Positions 55,185-63,640 of a stretch of 64,000 nt of DNA are shown here, in pieces. Position 1 is the first letter of the stretch, and each line of letters opens with the position of its first letter. The notes beneath the pieces are model-generated. The model was not told the DNA's origin. It worked only from the letters and a program-made list of their open reading frames with translations, and did not search any database. Source of the stretch: Desulfovirgula sp. (lineage in GTDB: Bacteria; Bacillota; Desulfotomaculia; Desulfotomaculales; Desulfovirgulaceae); contig DYEX01000127.1 in NCBI GenBank assembly GCA_020725525.1, forward strand, positions 1 to 64,000, given 5' to 3'. The translations under genes and the position numbers were made by a program.

Positions 55185-55242
55185 GTAGTTGTTCAGCAAA
55201 ACCGCTACCATCGGCACCATAACGGGGTTACTGAACATTTAC
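55185..55242. repeat. 58-bp relative of the ~300-bp repeat with flanking direct repeats
   Basis: The left end GTAGTTGTTCAGCAAAACCG matches the left end of copy 2 (GTAAATATTCAGCAAAACCG), and the right end is CTGAACATTTAC. The structured arms are missing. TTACGGAGCAGG occurs on both sides (55173-55184 and 55239-55250), consistent with a target-site duplication of about 10-12 bp. Confidence 0.65.
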
Positions 55243-55263
55243 GGAGCAGGTGAAGGTGACTGT

Positions 55264-56439
55264 ATGCCAGTAGTTAAACTGACCCGGGGCCGGCATCACC
55301 GGGTCTTAAACGGACATCCCTGGGTTTACCGCACCGAGGTGGAGAACATTCACGGTCATTTTAACCCCGGCGATGTGGTGGAAGTGGTGGATCACCGGGG
55401 TCGGTTTGTGGGGCGGGGCTATATTAACCCCTCCTCCCAAATTCTGGTGCGCCTCTTCACCCGGGAGCAGGGGGAAAAAATTGACCGGGAGTTTTTTCGC
55501 CGGCGTTTAATGGCGGCCCTGGAATACCGCCGCCGGGTGGTGCGGCATACCAATGCCTGCCGCCTGGTTTTTGCCGAGGCCGATTTTCTGCCCGCGCTGA
55601 TCGTGGACCGGTTTGGCGATTACCTGTCCGTGCAGACCCTGGCCCTGGGAATAGACGTGCACAAAGATACGATTGTAGAGCTTCTGGATGAACTATTAAA
55701 TCCCGCCGGTATCTACGAAAGAAACGACGTGCCGGTGCGGGAACTGGAGGGGCTGCCCCTGGTGACGGGCTTTCTTAAAGGCCCCTTTAACCCATTAGTG
55801 GAGATAGAAGAAAATGGGTTGCGCTTTTTAGTGGACCTGGCCGGGGGGCAGAAGACTGGCTATTTTTTAGATCAACGGGAAAACCGGCTGGCCCTGGAGG
55901 GGCTGGCCGGGGGAGCCCGGGTACTGGATTGTTTTTGCCACACCGGCACTTTTTCCGTCTATGCCGCCCGTTTCGGGGCCAGAGAGGTGCTGGGTATTGA
56001 TGTGGCGGGCGACGCCCTGGAGATGGCCCGGGAAAACGCGGCCCGGAACGGGTTCCGGCAGGTTTGCACCTTCCGGGAGGGTAACGCCTTCGATGAACTG
56101 CGGGCCATGGACCGGGCCGGGGAACGGTTTGACTTAATTATTCTCGATCCGCCGGCCTTTACCAAATCCAAAGAGGCGCTGGAAGGGGCCATCCGGGGCT
56201 ACAAGGAGATCAATTTGCGGGCCATGAAGCTGTTACCTTCAGGTGGTTTTCTGGTTACCTGCTCCTGTTCTTACCATATGACCGAGGATCTCTTCCTGGA
56301 AGTATTGCTGGATGCTGCCCGGGATGCAGGGCGGCAGTTGCGTCTGGTGGAAATGCGCCGCCAGGCCAAAGACCACCCCATGCTTCTCGCTTCGCCGGAA
56401 ACGTATTACCTGAAATGTTTTGTGCTGCAGGTGTGGTGA
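55264..56439 (+). CDS. Class I SAM-dependent rRNA cytosine methyltransferase, RlmI-like
   Basis: A 391-residue protein with an N-terminal PUA-like domain (GHPWVYRTEVENIHG) and a Rossmann methyltransferase domain: GQKTGYFLDQRENR, LDCFCHTGTFSVYAA (motif I), LDPPAF (motif IV) and CSCSYHM. The RlmI family methylates a cytosine C5 in 23S rRNA. ATG 55264 follows GGTGAAGG. Its 3' end is the left boundary of the plasmid-like element. Confidence 0.85.
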   Translation: MPVVKLTRGRHHRVLNGHPWVYRTEVENIHGHFNPGDVVEVVDHRGRFVGRGYINPSSQILVRLFTREQGEKIDREFFRRRLMAALEYRRRVVRHTNACRLVFAEADFLPALIVDRFGDYLSVQTLALGIDVHKDTIVELLDELLNPAGIYERNDVPVRELEGLPLVTGFLKGPFNPLVEIEENGLRFLVDLAGGQKTGYFLDQRENRLALEGLAGGARVLDCFCHTGTFSVYAARFGAREVLGIDVAGDALEMARENAARNGFRQVCTFREGNAFDELRAMDRAGERFDLIILDPPAFTKSKEALEGAIRGYKEINLRAMKLLPSGGFLVTCSCSYHMTEDLFLEVLLDAARDAGRQLRLVEMRRQAKDHPMLLASPETYYLKCFVLQVW

Positions 56440-56600
56440 AGCCTTAAAAATCAAGGCTTCCGGGGTTTTGGAACGAGCTGGAAGTCCAGAACAGTCCAGG
56501 AGAGACCCCTTGATTTTACTGGATTTTTGGATAGTCCGTTAGCAAACTCGTTAGCAAACGTTAGCAAGTGGTTAGCAAGATTTACGAACATACTGCACGT
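56440..56600. other. Candidate attachment-site region with direct and inverted repeats
   Basis: AAAATCAAGG (56447-56456) and CCTTGATTTT (56508-56517) form a perfect inverted repeat. Four copies of GTTAGCAA follow at 56538, 56550, 56560 and 56571. Inverted core repeats with clustered direct repeats next to a chromosomal gene are the usual look of a tyrosine-recombinase attachment end, but iterons are an alternative. Confidence 0.4.
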
Positions 56601-56638: not shown

Positions 56639-56687
56639 CCCCCTGCCGAAGGCTCAAAAAAAGGCCGCAGGCAGGGGGTTTTGTTTG
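56639..56687 (+). terminator. Intrinsic terminator-like hairpin
   Basis: CCCCCTGCC (56639-56647) pairs with GGCAGGGGG (56670-56678), followed by TTTTGTTT. No gene is recognised immediately upstream. Confidence 0.6.
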
Positions 56688-56877
56688 CCGGATAAGACGT
56701 ATTAGCCCGGACAGAAGCAGGGTCAGAGCAAAATGGGCGCCAGGCCCGGCAGGGGGCGGTGGTTGCAGGAAAATGGCCGAGCCGAAAACCATCTCCAGTT
56801 GAGTTTAAAATAGGTCGAGTTGGAATCGAATAGAGGGGCAGGCCAGCAGGAAACACGGCCCGGCTGCGCGGAAAAAC

Positions 56878-56997
56878 GGCCCCGGTTTAAACCGGGGCCG
56901 GTGGCCCTTAAAAAGGGGGTGGTTGGGCAAAAAAACCGGGGTAGGTTGGCTCCAAAACCGGGGTGGGTTGACCTTAAAACCGGGTCGGTTTACAAAA
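56878..56997. repeat. Palindrome and five 22-bp tandem repeats (origin-, partition- or transfer-like)
   Basis: A perfect 22-bp palindrome (GGCCCCGGTTT and its inverse, 56878-56899) leads into units starting at 56888, 56910, 56932, 56954 and 56976, exactly 22 bp apart. Each is built on AAAACCGGGGTGGGTTG; the first and second units are more divergent. Two helical turns of spacing suit cooperative protein binding, as in iterons or centromeres. The region encodes no supported protein. Confidence 0.75.
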
Positions 56998-57133
56998 AAG
57001 GCGGCTAGTTGGAAAAGGCCAACTCCGCCCGGAAGAAAACTCCCGCTGGCCGTACCCGCGAAGGAACAGCTGGCGAGGGTTTTGTTTTTAGGGGGACGGC
57101 CCTAAACAAGAATACCACAAAAGGAGTGATAAT
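56998..57133. other. Non-coding leader of the RHH gene
   Basis: It contains a small hairpin AGTTGG-N6-CCAACT (57006-57023) and an AAAAGGAG ribosome-binding site for the RHH gene. No promoter of good quality is seen. Confidence 0.4.
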
Positions 57134-57301
57134 ATGCGGGAAATAAGACGTAGGCCCATCAAACAAAAAATGGTTAGTATGCGGATGGATACAGAAATGT
57201 TAGAAACAATAAAACATATTGCGGCACGTAATGGTATACATTATCAACAATTAATTCGGCAATGGATACTTCAAGGCATAAAAAAGCACGCACTTAAATA
57301 G
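57134..57301 (+). CDS. Ribbon-helix-helix DNA-binding protein, CopG-antitoxin-like
   Basis: A 55-residue protein starting at ATG after AAAAGGAG. The beta strand MVSMRMD is followed by two helices (EMLETIKHIAARNG, YQQLIRQWILQGIKK), the pattern of CopG/BrnA-type antitoxins. No toxin gene is adjacent: the neighbouring gene is a convergent XRE regulator overlapping by 8 bp. It could be a copy-number or partition repressor acting on the nearby 22-bp repeats. Confidence 0.7.
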   Translation: MREIRRRPIKQKMVSMRMDTEMLETIKHIAARNGIHYQQLIRQWILQGIKKHALK

Positions 57302-58313
57302 TGCGTGCTTTTAAAATTCTATCACCAAGTTTAGTTATTTCTCTTGAAAATTTCTCGTACTCTGAGATATTTGCAAAATTTATAAGCACCACAACGCTGC
57401 CGTCAGATTCAAAACTAATGTTTATGGGATTGCTTGACTTCTTTAGTTTATTAAACTTTAAACCGTTATGTTCAATTTTACTAAATTCTGGTTCTTCTGG
57501 CCACTCATTAGTTTCCTTAATTATATCTCTAATATGTTCATACAGGTACCAGTCACCATTTTCATTAAAAATTTTAATCCACTCTTCCGAAATTTCTGTG
57601 ATGATATTTGCATTGATTTTGTTGTTTTCTTGTAACTGTTGATATTTTCTCACTTCTTCAACTTTCTTTAGCGCTTCCTTGAAAATCTCCGTCTTTTTAA
57701 TAAGTACAGTTATGCCCTTTTTAGGGTCAAGAAATTTATCCGGTATTTTACCTAGTAAAAAAAGAAATTCATCTGGGTCAAAATCAAGTTTTTTAGCAAG
57801 GCTAATATAAATAGCAGCCGAATAATTCACTAGAGACGAAGTATACAAATATAAATCCATTGACTTTGGGTTTTCTATATAAAGTACATCGTTCCAAGAT
57901 AAATTATTCTTTTTTAATAAATATTCCATTAAAGACTTAAAATACAACTCTTCACTAGAATATACAGATAAACGTAATAAGTCCGCAAAATACTTGCCCG
58001 CTAACACTATGGAGCCAACCGCCGCCCTGGGAAATAGTTTTCCGAAGGTACTGAGCTTTTTAATTTCCTCATCGCTTCGGACACCAAGATAGCCTGCGCG
58101 ATATAGCAATTCTACGCAGGATACCTGTAAAGGTATACTTAGCTTTCCTAAGAGTTCTGGTGAAGGGCTAGGCATATCTGGATTATTACAAACCTGGGAT
58201 AAATAACCAGGATTAATTTTTGCTGCTGCGGCTGTCTGGCGCAAAGATAAACCCAATTCGGACATGCGTTCACGTACAAATTCACCAAGCCTTTCGGAGG
58301 CAGGGTTTTTCAT
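57294..58313 (-). CDS. XRE-family transcriptional regulator of the integrated element
   Basis: A 339-residue protein with an N-terminal helix-turn-helix (SLRQTAAAAKINPGYLSQVC). The remaining 270 residues are unrecognised, rich in Lys and Ile, and may sense a signal. Strikingly AT-rich compared with its neighbours, suggesting a different origin. It is divergent from the 408-aa gene, and AAACGTTTAT occurs at both promoters, so it probably represses both. Confidence 0.8.
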   Translation of the reverse strand: MKNPASERLGEFVRERMSELGLSLRQTAAAAKINPGYLSQVCNNPDMPSPSPELLGKLSIPLQVSCVELLYRAGYLGVRSDEEIKKLSTFGKLFPRAAVGSIVLAGKYFADLLRLSVYSSEELYFKSLMEYLLKKNNLSWNDVLYIENPKSMDLYLYTSSLVNYSAAIYISLAKKLDFDPDEFLFLLGKIPDKFLDPKKGITVLIKKTEIFKEALKKVEEVRKYQQLQENNKINANIITEISEEWIKIFNENGDWYLYEHIRDIIKETNEWPEEPEFSKIEHNGLKFNKLKKSSNPINISFESDGSVVVLINFANISEYEKFSREITKLGDRILKARTI

Positions 58314-60023: not shown

Positions 60024-60935
60024 ATGGCGGAAAAAGGAAAGGAAAGGGGATGGCAGTGGGAGTGTGGGAGTGAAATTTTACATATAGACCGAAATATAGC
60101 GCGTGATCGAAACATGTTCGCTGTGCCCCTGATAGACGACCCACCAATCAGCCAGGGTCAGCTGCACAACGGCCAAGTTGTGGGCGTGGTGGCCTGGCAG
60201 TGGCCAGGGGATGATCGGGTATTTTTGGTGCCCGCCGAATTATTTTACGTAACCAGGTTAGGCGGGTTAGTCAGGGATGTCATATCTGCTACGGGACAAC
60301 TCTACCGGGACCAGGGATTCCCGGCGCAGGTCACTACATCGTACCGAAAAATAGCTGAATTGCTGGGCCTGAGTTTTAATGGCCGGGTGGCCAACGAGAT
60401 AGAAATGTGTTTTGCGTATGCACGCTGCTTTACCGTACAAAACCATCCTATTATTATCCAATTAGACAAAACCGGTAAGGTGAGAAAACAAGACAAGGTT
60501 GTTTTCGGTTTTATCGACTATATAGCTAGGGCTGACATTAGAGACGGCAAAAAAATACCTAAAAATCGAGCACCGATTAATATAGTGTTAAGTAATTTAT
60601 ATGCTACAGCATTACGCGAACTACCACCGGCCCCGCTTCCGGTGGCCGCGCTGGAAGCGGCACACCGCGCACCCTGGAAATTGGCCACGCCCGCAAAAAA
60701 CCTGGCATATTATCTGGCCGCAAGGGTGCCAATGCGAGAAATCAGGCTACTCTTGCCCACTCTACGCGATATCCTGGGTTTTACCGAACGCAGTGATGGT
60801 AAAACAACCCGGACAAGAAAGGCCATAGAAAATGTAATGAACATTCTATACTCAGTAATGATCTCTGATTATCAGTACGCTGACGACGGGTACAATATAA
60901 CATTATCTGGCAATATTGGAAATAATAATATGTGA
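60024..60935 (+). CDS. Putative plasmid-type replication initiator
   Basis: A 303-residue protein with winged-helix-like segments (TSYRKIAELLGLSFNGRVAN; IRLLLPTLRDILGFTERSDG). I do not recognise the exact family. The initiator call rests on position: the stop codon overlaps the first of four GACGTAATAGG iterons that follow directly, a classic rep-iteron layout. A primase-helicase gene comes next. ATG 60024 follows AAAAAAGGGGG. Confidence 0.6.
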   Translation: MAEKGKERGWQWECGSEILHIDRNIARDRNMFAVPLIDDPPISQGQLHNGQVVGVVAWQWPGDDRVFLVPAELFYVTRLGGLVRDVISATGQLYRDQGFPAQVTTSYRKIAELLGLSFNGRVANEIEMCFAYARCFTVQNHPIIIQLDKTGKVRKQDKVVFGFIDYIARADIRDGKKIPKNRAPINIVLSNLYATALRELPPAPLPVAALEAAHRAPWKLATPAKNLAYYLAARVPMREIRLLLPTLRDILGFTERSDGKTTRTRKAIENVMNILYSVMISDYQYADDGYNITLSGNIGNNNM

Positions 60936-61011
60936 CGTAATAGGGCCAAAAATGAGACGTAATAGGGTACTAAAATGAGACGTAATAGGGCCATTTTTGA
61001 GACGTAATAGG
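60934..61011. repeat. Four iterons GACGTAATAGG with 22-23 bp spacing
   Basis: Copies start at 60934, 60956, 60979 and 61001; the extended form is TGAGACGTAATAGGG. Direct repeats spaced by two helical turns immediately after an initiator gene are typical of an iteron origin. Confidence 0.8.
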
Positions 61012-61188: not shown

Positions 61189-61250
61189 GCCGGTCGGTTG
61201 GATCTCGACCGGCCTTTCTTTTTTAGAGAGATTTTTTAGGAGGTGTTTGG
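61167..61250 (+). promoter_or_regulatory. Ribosome-binding-site sequestering structure upstream of the primase-helicase
   Basis: CCAAACACCTCCT (61167-61179) is the exact reverse complement of AGGAGGTGTTTGG (61238-61250), which contains the Shine-Dalgarno sequence 9 bp before ATG 61253. If paired, translation would be blocked. Confidence 0.65.
61189..61226 (+). terminator. Intrinsic terminator within the primase leader
   Basis: GCCGGTCG (61189-61196) pairs with CGACCGGC (61206-61213), followed by CTTTCTTTTTT. It lies between the two arms that can sequester the primase ribosome-binding site. Confidence 0.75.
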
Positions 61251-61252
61251 AA

Positions 61253-63640
61253 ATGCGGGATGAGCTTACAGCGTGGCTGGACGAACAGGTTTACCCGCGT
61301 CTTTCGCACCAGCAGGTTTTTGGCGATCTTCCCGGCTTTAAACGGGTTGGACGGGGGTATGTGGCCGAATGCCCAAACCCGGAGCATGCCGACCGGCACC
61401 CTTCTTTTTATATGAAAGAAGGGCAGCCTTTCGGCCATTGCTTTGGGTGCGGGGTGACTGTCAGTTGGTGGCGGGCGCTGGAGTTACGTGGCCTTTCCGG
61501 GCGGCAAGTCATACAGGAACTTACCCGCCTGGCCGGTGTCCCGCCGCTGGCCGGTGGCGACCCGGAAAAGGCAGTAAAGTCCCGCGCCGAAGCAGAAGCG
61601 GTGGAAAGCTGGTGGCAAACTGCACGGGCCGCCCTTTGGCGCCTTGAAGGCCGGGATGTGCTGGAGTACCTGCGGGAGCGTGGGTATTCTAACGACCAAA
61701 TCCGGCAGATGGACGTTGCCGCCAGGCCGGACGGACCGCCGCCGGGTGGATTGAAACTACCGCCGGAACAGTATCGCCTACTCATCCCGGCACGCGTCCG
61801 TGGCGGGCGGATCATCGGCTTTGCTGGACGGCGAATAGATGGCGGGGAACCAAAGTACCAGTATTCGCCTGGATTCCAGCGTAATTCTCATCTCTGGGGT
61901 ATGTACCGTCTCCGGCCTGACGATATTCCGCTGATAGTAGAAGGCGTGTTGGATAGCGAGACGATACCGCTCCGGGAAATTGTGGCTTTGGGCGGCACCA
62001 CCCTTTCATCCGCCCAGGTGCAGGCACTGGCCCGGCACCGGCGGGTTATCCTGGCTCTGGACGATGACGATGCTGGAAAAAAAGCGACAGAAGCGGCGGT
62101 GCAAAAACTTACCGCCGCCGGGGTAAAAGTGTACGTCATACCGGGTTTCGGTGGTGTAAAAGACCCCGATGAGTTTGTCCGAGCCAGCGGCCTTGCCGCC
62201 TTTGCGGAACTTGCCCGACATGCTGTGGCCGGTCATAAATGGCTAACCGACCGGCTGATTCCTGCCGCAGTACCACCTGCGGATATAGAACGGGACGCGG
62301 TACTAGAGAAGGTCCTGGACCTGGCCGAATCTTACCACCGCACCGACCCGGTGGCGGCGAAAGAAGTCCTGGACATGGCCGCCGCCCGGCTGTGCCTGGA
62401 CCCGGTTGCCCTGGCCCAGGCAGTGGAGCGGCTGGCGGAAAGGCGCAGGGTGCAGGAAGCGGAAAACCTGGTCAGGGCGGCCATCCGGGAAGCCGCCAGC
62501 GAAAAGGATTGGCGGGAGGCGGCCCGGAAGGTGGCCGAGGCGCAGGAGCAGGCAGCGGCCATCCTCCAGGAGCCGCCCAAGCCGATAGACCCGGCGGCGC
62601 TGGAGTATGAAATAGCGCACGCTCCTGAAGGACTGCTCTTCCCGTGGCCTGCCTTAAGCGGGTTATGTAGAATTGACCTTGGCGGCCTGACGACCATTTA
62701 TGCGGCGTCGGGTTTCGGGAAAACGAATGTTCTGTATAATTTACTGTTATTCTACCTGGAAAAGTATCCAGGTGCAATAATTCTCTGGTCAGGCGAAATG
62801 GCCCCCCGCAGGGTGTATCACCGTTTAGTGTCTATCCTTTCCAGTGTTGATTACGGGGAAGTGGGGCGAGGGTTTCGAACGGGAGAAAAGAAGCCGGAGA
62901 TGATTGCCGCGCAGGAAAAGCTTCGTGCATACGCCGAAAGGCTGTATATCCTGGAGCCTCCGAAACCGGCTGATGTAGCCGACCTGGAAACAATGGTGGA
63001 CGCTATTTCCCGGCGGCAGCCGGTTACGGCGGTTATGGTTGATTACCTACAGCAGCTTGCGCCGCCGGGGAAAATAGACGGCACTATAAAATACGGGACC
63101 AGGGAGCAGGAAGTTACCACCGTGGCTAAAGAGTTGCACGGGCTTGGGCAGACCCAAAATATCCCGGTCGTGGCCGCAGTCCAGATCAACCGGATGGGGG
63201 GATTACAGCGAAAGCCACAGCAGGACGACGCCCGAGAATCTGGTGCGATAGAACAGTATTCGCAGTTGGTTCTCGGCCTCTGGAATGCCGGTCGTGCTGG
63301 CGTTCACGCGCTCCGGGACGGCTGCGTTCCCGCCGCGCCGCCGAATGGCTGGTACTGGCAGGATGATGACATTGCTACCCGCCAGGCGGCGGCGATGGCC
63401 GAGAGTCACGGCGCGGTGTTGCTGGAGTGCGCTATTTTAAAGTCCAGGTATTATGGTCACGAGAACATGGCCGTGCCGCTGATGTATTATGGCCCCACCG
63501 GCAGGGTGGAGCCGCTGCGCACCACGCACGGTAAATTGTACGTACCGGTACCGCCGGGAGGGGTGAGCGGTGAAAAAGGCGGCAAAAAACCGTCGAAGAA
63601 GTCAGCCCGCGCGGTTACGGTTTTGGCCGGGGGTAGGTAG
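61253..63640 (+). CDS. Phage/plasmid primase-helicase (CHC2 zinc finger, Toprim, DnaB-like helicase)
   Basis: A 795-residue protein. An N-terminal CHC2 zinc finger (CPNPEHADRHPSFY...HCFGCG, residues about 40-70) precedes a Toprim domain (VEGVLDSE, ALDDDDAG near 220-275) and a RecA-like helicase domain with Walker A ASGFGKTN near residue 485 and motif SGEMAPRRVYHR. This bifunctional layout is that of phage T7 gp4 and related elements. It probably replicates the element from the adjacent iteron origin. ATG 61253 is chosen because AGGAGG is 9 bp upstream. Confidence 0.85.
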   Translation: MRDELTAWLDEQVYPRLSHQQVFGDLPGFKRVGRGYVAECPNPEHADRHPSFYMKEGQPFGHCFGCGVTVSWWRALELRGLSGRQVIQELTRLAGVPPLAGGDPEKAVKSRAEAEAVESWWQTARAALWRLEGRDVLEYLRERGYSNDQIRQMDVAARPDGPPPGGLKLPPEQYRLLIPARVRGGRIIGFAGRRIDGGEPKYQYSPGFQRNSHLWGMYRLRPDDIPLIVEGVLDSETIPLREIVALGGTTLSSAQVQALARHRRVILALDDDDAGKKATEAAVQKLTAAGVKVYVIPGFGGVKDPDEFVRASGLAAFAELARHAVAGHKWLTDRLIPAAVPPADIERDAVLEKVLDLAESYHRTDPVAAKEVLDMAAARLCLDPVALAQAVERLAERRRVQEAENLVRAAIREAASEKDWREAARKVAEAQEQAAAILQEPPKPIDPAALEYEIAHAPEGLLFPWPALSGLCRIDLGGLTTIYAASGFGKTNVLYNLLLFYLEKYPGAIILWSGEMAPRRVYHRLVSILSSVDYGEVGRGFRTGEKKPEMIAAQEKLRAYAERLYILEPPKPADVADLETMVDAISRRQPVTAVMVDYLQQLAPPGKIDGTIKYGTREQEVTTVAKELHGLGQTQNIPVVAAVQINRMGGLQRKPQQDDARESGAIEQYSQLVLGLWNAGRAGVHALRDGCVPAAPPNGWYWQDDDIATRQAAAMAESHGAVLLECAILKSRYYGHENMAVPLMYYGPTGRVEPLRTTHGKLYVPVPPGGVSGEKGGKKPSKKSARAVTVLAGGR

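Follow-up and report, generated by a model that had tools for sequence, protein, structure and literature searches.

The window analysed here is a stretch of 64 kb, which is the first part of a 133.9-kb contig (C101). A host gene for an rlmI-type methyltransferase is found as an ORF at 55189-56439 on the forward strand, and a mobile element is inserted at the 3' end of this gene. A repeat of the final 38 bp of rlmI, with 33 of 38 positions identical, lies at C101:116655-116692, shortly after an integrase gene (C101:115449-116591), and synteny of the host genes with genomes G003 and G008 resumes to the right of this repeat. The duplicated rlmI end after the integrase gene and the host synteny beyond it thus delimit an integrative element of about 60.3 kb.

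The left end of the element begins with the attL region (56402-56475), which contains the duplicated rlmI end with a near-palindromic core, GAAGCCTTAAAAATCAAGGCTTC. Elements inserted elsewhere have this core at their borders too. It is followed at 56537-56578 by four forward copies of TTAGCAA (56539, 56551, 56561 and 56572); two more copies lie at the opposite end of the element, where the integrase gene ends (C101:116578 and 116588). A sister element in genome G001, inserted at tRNA-Pro, carries GCAGACC repeats in the same layout, four on the left and two on the right. The repeats of both elements are best read as probable arm-type integrase sites. By a wedge model, a 107-bp segment in the stretch from the core to the arms (56461-56567) ranks among the window's most curved.

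Downstream of the arms are two terminator-like hairpins, both on the forward strand. Hairpin 1 (56639-56690) is followed by TTTTGTTT and has a folding energy of -34 kcal/mol (z -3.5); its counterpart stands after the arms in genome G005. Hairpin 2 (57041-57092) has a TTTTGTTTTT tail, and its alignment shows conserved U-G and G-U pairs. The array described below lies between the TTAGCAA arm sites and hairpin 2, which precedes a gene for a 55-aa protein of the Arc/CopG ribbon-helix-helix (RHH) type (57134-57301, forward strand; PF12441, E 3.9e-9; PDB chains of the Arc repressor, E 0.004). The AlphaFold model of this protein is of low confidence (pLDDT 68). Convergent with the RHH gene is a gene for a 339-aa protein with an XRE-type helix-turn-helix (HTH) domain (57294-58313, reverse strand; PF01381, HTH_3, E 2.6e-6). 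Both here and in the G001 element, the integrase is immediately preceded by a small HTH ORF, which appears by inspection only to be the likelier excisionase.

Replication and maintenance genes

A 303-aa protein encoded at 60024-60935 (forward strand) is Rep, a replication initiator-like protein by its context. It matches no Pfam, NCBIfam or PHROG family and has relatives in six further genomes. Directly after the Rep ORF, Tandem Repeats Finder (TRF) detects 22-bp iterons (60926-61011, forward strand), the probable replication origin of the element. Such iterons also directly follow Rep in all seven other Rep loci found (G001 and L074-L079), with only 2.5 copies in L076; the members of this Rep family with the arrangement include loci L044 and L074-L079. 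A search for Rep in plasmids found none, and the genome and viral contig scans with Rep or primase gave no relatives. The next gene codes for a primase-helicase (61247-63640, forward strand) with DnaB_C, Toprim and CHC2 domains.

Beyond the window the element encodes an actin-like protein (C101:69376-70383, or L042:5376-6383; ALP_N, E 1.5e-25; MreB-like_C, E 4.1e-31), which resembles PRTRC protein D and ParM. Its gene is preceded by genes for a small protein of unknown family and for an HU-like protein. No RHH-type ParR was seen beside the actin-like gene, the neighbour giving no RHH match, and no array comparable to the 22-bp array was found upstream of it. The element also encodes a VirD4-like coupling protein, a member of the CD1115 family.

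The palindrome and the 22-bp array

Five units follow one another on the forward strand at 56888-56997 (consensus AAAACCGGGGTGGGTTG...). They start at 56888, 56910, 56932, 56954 and 56976, so that the spacing of exactly 22 bp asserted in an earlier, sequence-only reading of this DNA is borne out, as is the start of the RHH ORF 137 bp downstream of the array. The self-identity at lag 22 equals 0.64 over 110 bp. Among 2000 dinucleotide shuffles, none attained this value at lags of 10 to 39, and the rest of the 64-kb window never comes within 0.03 of it. The units can be described as G-rich dyads and are uneven: most pairs agree at 12-14 of 22 positions, and pairs 3-4 and 1-4 agree at 17 of 22. 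The exact dyad AACC-N5/6-GGTT is present in three units (shuffle mean 0.07; 0 of 2000 shuffles).

The array abuts a perfect palindrome, CGGCCCCGGTTTAAACCGGGGCCG, which is the longest in the 104 kb of the contig that were scanned. Its span of 56877-56900 is 24 bp, not the 22 bp given in the same reading. Read on the minus strand, it precedes TTTTT and is scored as a terminator-like hairpin; some of its symmetry may therefore serve a separate purpose. Two weaker unit-like stretches, at about 56850 and 56872, lie just upstream of the array out of phase with the rest, and because of them the palindrome looks like two units placed head to head.

The unit is clustered only at 56888-56997, and it does not recur at the right end of the element. 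Intrinsic curvature of the array is unremarkable (wedge model, p 0.20, rank 886 of 6390). A scan for sigma-70-like promoters gave none near the array, no known RNA family scored above its gathering threshold, and phages and plasmids yielded no similar DNA. The array, close to one end of this integrated 60-kb mobile element, is a real feature, modest and poorly conserved.

The left end in related elements

The backbone proteins of the window's element and of its G001 sister are about 52-97% identical (Rep about 52-54%, primase 76%, the actin-like protein about 85%, the VirD4-like protein 87%). The integrases are only 34.6% identical and the RHH proteins 32-35%, and the convergent regulator that occupies the position of the XRE gene in G001 shows no similarity. 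The differences in integrase, RHH protein and XRE protein against a retained backbone place the array, together with its neighbours, in an exchanged module. The left end of the G001 element is ordered as core, GCAGACC arms, a short stretch with an inverted repeat, the conserved hairpin and the RHH gene. It has no 22-bp array, though its RHH gene is kept after the same hairpin.

The only convincing homologue of the array in the order is in G008, in a remnant of an element at rlmI, where the core is followed by a flank, the array, the conserved hairpin and then BrnA/BrnT. The G008 array consists of four units spaced 21, 22 and 22 bp, with about 70% DNA identity to that of the window. A gene of the 55-aa RHH type is absent from the remnant. 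Its flank matches the TTAGCAA-type end of the window, but the remnant lacks the inverted core site and arms that come next in the window and in G005, so that a deletion probably joined the flank to the array. Other matches with two mismatches in the order are single and within reach of chance, and about 45 other RHH loci, most of them of the BrnA type, have no comparable array nearby. The search for the unit in other elements, proposed together with the sequence-only reading, thus succeeded in G008, and failed at the left end of the G001 element and elsewhere in the order.

Across 113 genomes of the order, hairpin 2 occurs exactly three times, each time in a left end of this element family; two of these ends have the array. 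Its primary sequence (CCCGCTGGCC...GGCTGGCGRGGGTTTTGTTTTT) is nearly invariant at these three left ends, with higher conservation than the RHH gene downstream. Matches to the hairpin pattern in viral contigs lack any left-end context.

We considered and rejected a second, degenerate att core on the upstream side of the array: its apparent similarity to G008 is due to the array itself, and the core and flank alone give p from 0.19 to 0.98 depending on the scoring. One viral contig (L086) matched the array pattern: at 1240-1275 it has 22-bp dyad repeats (AGAACCGGGGGTGGTTCCAAAT), apparently within a coding gene, in a layout similar to that of the array.

Possible functions of the array

The sequence-only reading took the array for a phased nucleoprotein site. 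A phased protein-binding site remains a fair description of five dyad-bearing 22-bp units, and the specific sites then proposed (centromere, transfer origin or second replication origin) fare worse. The array probably serves as a docking site for a small DNA-binding regulator. Our leading interpretation, held tentatively and at somewhat less than even confidence, is that it consists of operator-like sites in an exchangeable integration module, bound cooperatively by a dimeric regulator, most likely the Arc-like RHH protein. As we best read the locus, this protein ranks first among the candidate binders and the neighbouring XRE repressor second.

A dimeric protein, most likely the neighbouring RHH protein, would bind the AACC/GGTT half-sites, whose distance of 10-12 bp would accommodate one dimer per helical turn. 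Cooperative binding along one face of the DNA would then build a nucleoprotein complex. Dimers of the RHH protein RelB bind half-sites of about 12 bp on one face of the helix (PMC2812701). In the excised circle the predicted order is integrase gene, attP, arms, hairpin 1, array, hairpin 2 and RHH gene. The complex would thus lie between the integrase-attP segment and the RHH gene and could regulate transcription or recombination at that end; given this order of genes and sites, control of the expression of the integration module or of recombination is the simplest role to suppose.

The exact 22-bp phase and the dyads, which are far beyond chance, favour operators, and the fact that G008, with about 70% DNA identity, retains the phase is as expected for protein-binding sites and not for coding sequence. 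The neighbouring RHH protein has the size of Arc, which speaks for it as the binder. As in the operators of Arc, CopG and RelB, the half-sites lie about one helical turn apart and an Arc-sized RHH gene is near; unlike a single such operator, the array has five units, and it is not at the start of the RHH gene itself. Two relatives count against the link to the RHH protein: the G001 element has the gene without the array, and G008 has the array without the gene, although the latter is a deletion remnant. Absence of the array where an RHH gene is kept, named beforehand as the observation that would refute the link, was thus seen once, in G001, but at 32-35% identity of the two proteins their sites could have diverged. 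The terminator-like hairpin between the array and the RHH gene indicates that the array is not a simple autoregulated promoter and, together with the absence of the array in G001, weakens the link. The integration module (integrase, arm sites, RHH protein and XRE regulator) varies between related elements that retain their backbone. If the RHH protein does bind the array, this would help to explain how excision or maintenance is controlled in such elements. The array marks a candidate control site at one end of an integrative element that appears to be unclassified and has its own Rep, iterons, actin-like protein and defence island.

The 339-aa XRE-type protein is the next candidate, although an unlikely one: the array would comprise its operators and act as an immunity or maintenance switch, as with the CI repressor. 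Operators of CI and 434 type in phages are 14-bp dyads spaced about 22 bp. The array, with 14-bp dyads made of 4-bp half-sites around a 6-bp centre at a spacing of 22 bp, recalls these lambdoid operators; an HTH_3 domain protein is encoded nearby, and G001, where the regulator at the same place is unrelated, has no array. Unlike those operators, the array has five sites and sits to the 3' side of the XRE gene instead of at the promoter of that gene, with no promoter mapped or sigma-70-like promoter detected near it. It is rather improbable that the array is a functionless relic, the sites of an earlier integration module left behind when a new integrase end was acquired. The apparently composite structure of the left end would suit such a history, for the core, arms and hairpin 1 are as in G005 and the array and hairpin 2 as in G008; moreover, the G008 array sits at the distance where arm sites occur elsewhere, and conservation is lower in the array than in its flanks. 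The TTAGCAA-type flank shared by G008 without the inverted core site and arms suggests, however, a deletion and not an ancestral layout, and neither a second core upstream of the array nor a copy of the unit at the right end was detected. The array resembles arm-type sites of the integrases of phages and integrative and conjugative elements (ICEs) as a short-repeat array close to attL, but about 440 bp separate it from the core and the right end lacks it; since TTAGCAA already has the arm-site layout at both ends, the array is not an arm array.

A centromere-like partition site of the excised, replicating element is quite doubtful. In ParMRC systems (parC of R1, pSK41 and pCW3) the centromere consists of direct repeats of 10-20 bp bound by ParR, typically an RHH protein (PMC9426499), and this element has direct repeats and an actin-like protein next to which neither an RHH partner nor a repeat array is obvious. 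But parC normally lies upstream of parM (PMC9426499), whereas about 12 kb lie between the array and the actin-like gene, which has no adjacent RHH gene, and G001 keeps the actin-like protein without the array at its left end. There is a small chance that, in this integrative replicon, the 55-aa RHH protein and the array together make up a minimal module for stability or partition, either without a linked motor gene or acting through the unlinked actin-like protein. As a part of a transfer origin (oriT) the array is very unlikely. The VirD4-like protein and a hairpin of conserved primary sequence adjoining the array would fit, but neither a relaxase nor VirB4 was recognised among the ORFs scanned in the element, many of which have no family. 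A second, iteron-type replication origin is the most improbable of all: the array shares the 22-bp period of plasmid iterons and of the element's own, but its sequence is unrelated to them, the true iterons directly follow Rep here and in relatives, and no rep gene adjoins the array, Rep and its iterons being about 3-4 kb away.

The 22-bp arrays of the G001 element are iterons and lie after Rep and after a second gene; the latter array (G001:C1, about 1598700-1598780, L065) is iteron-like and follows a gene for a 148-aa protein. The window's element also carries a probable defence island at C101:101943-112383 (L043, L059) that encodes a 1109-aa protein, a DUF1156 methyltransferase and a DUF499 protein, the last with a match to NF042962 below the cut-off; a gene for an Mrr-type endonuclease adjoins the island.
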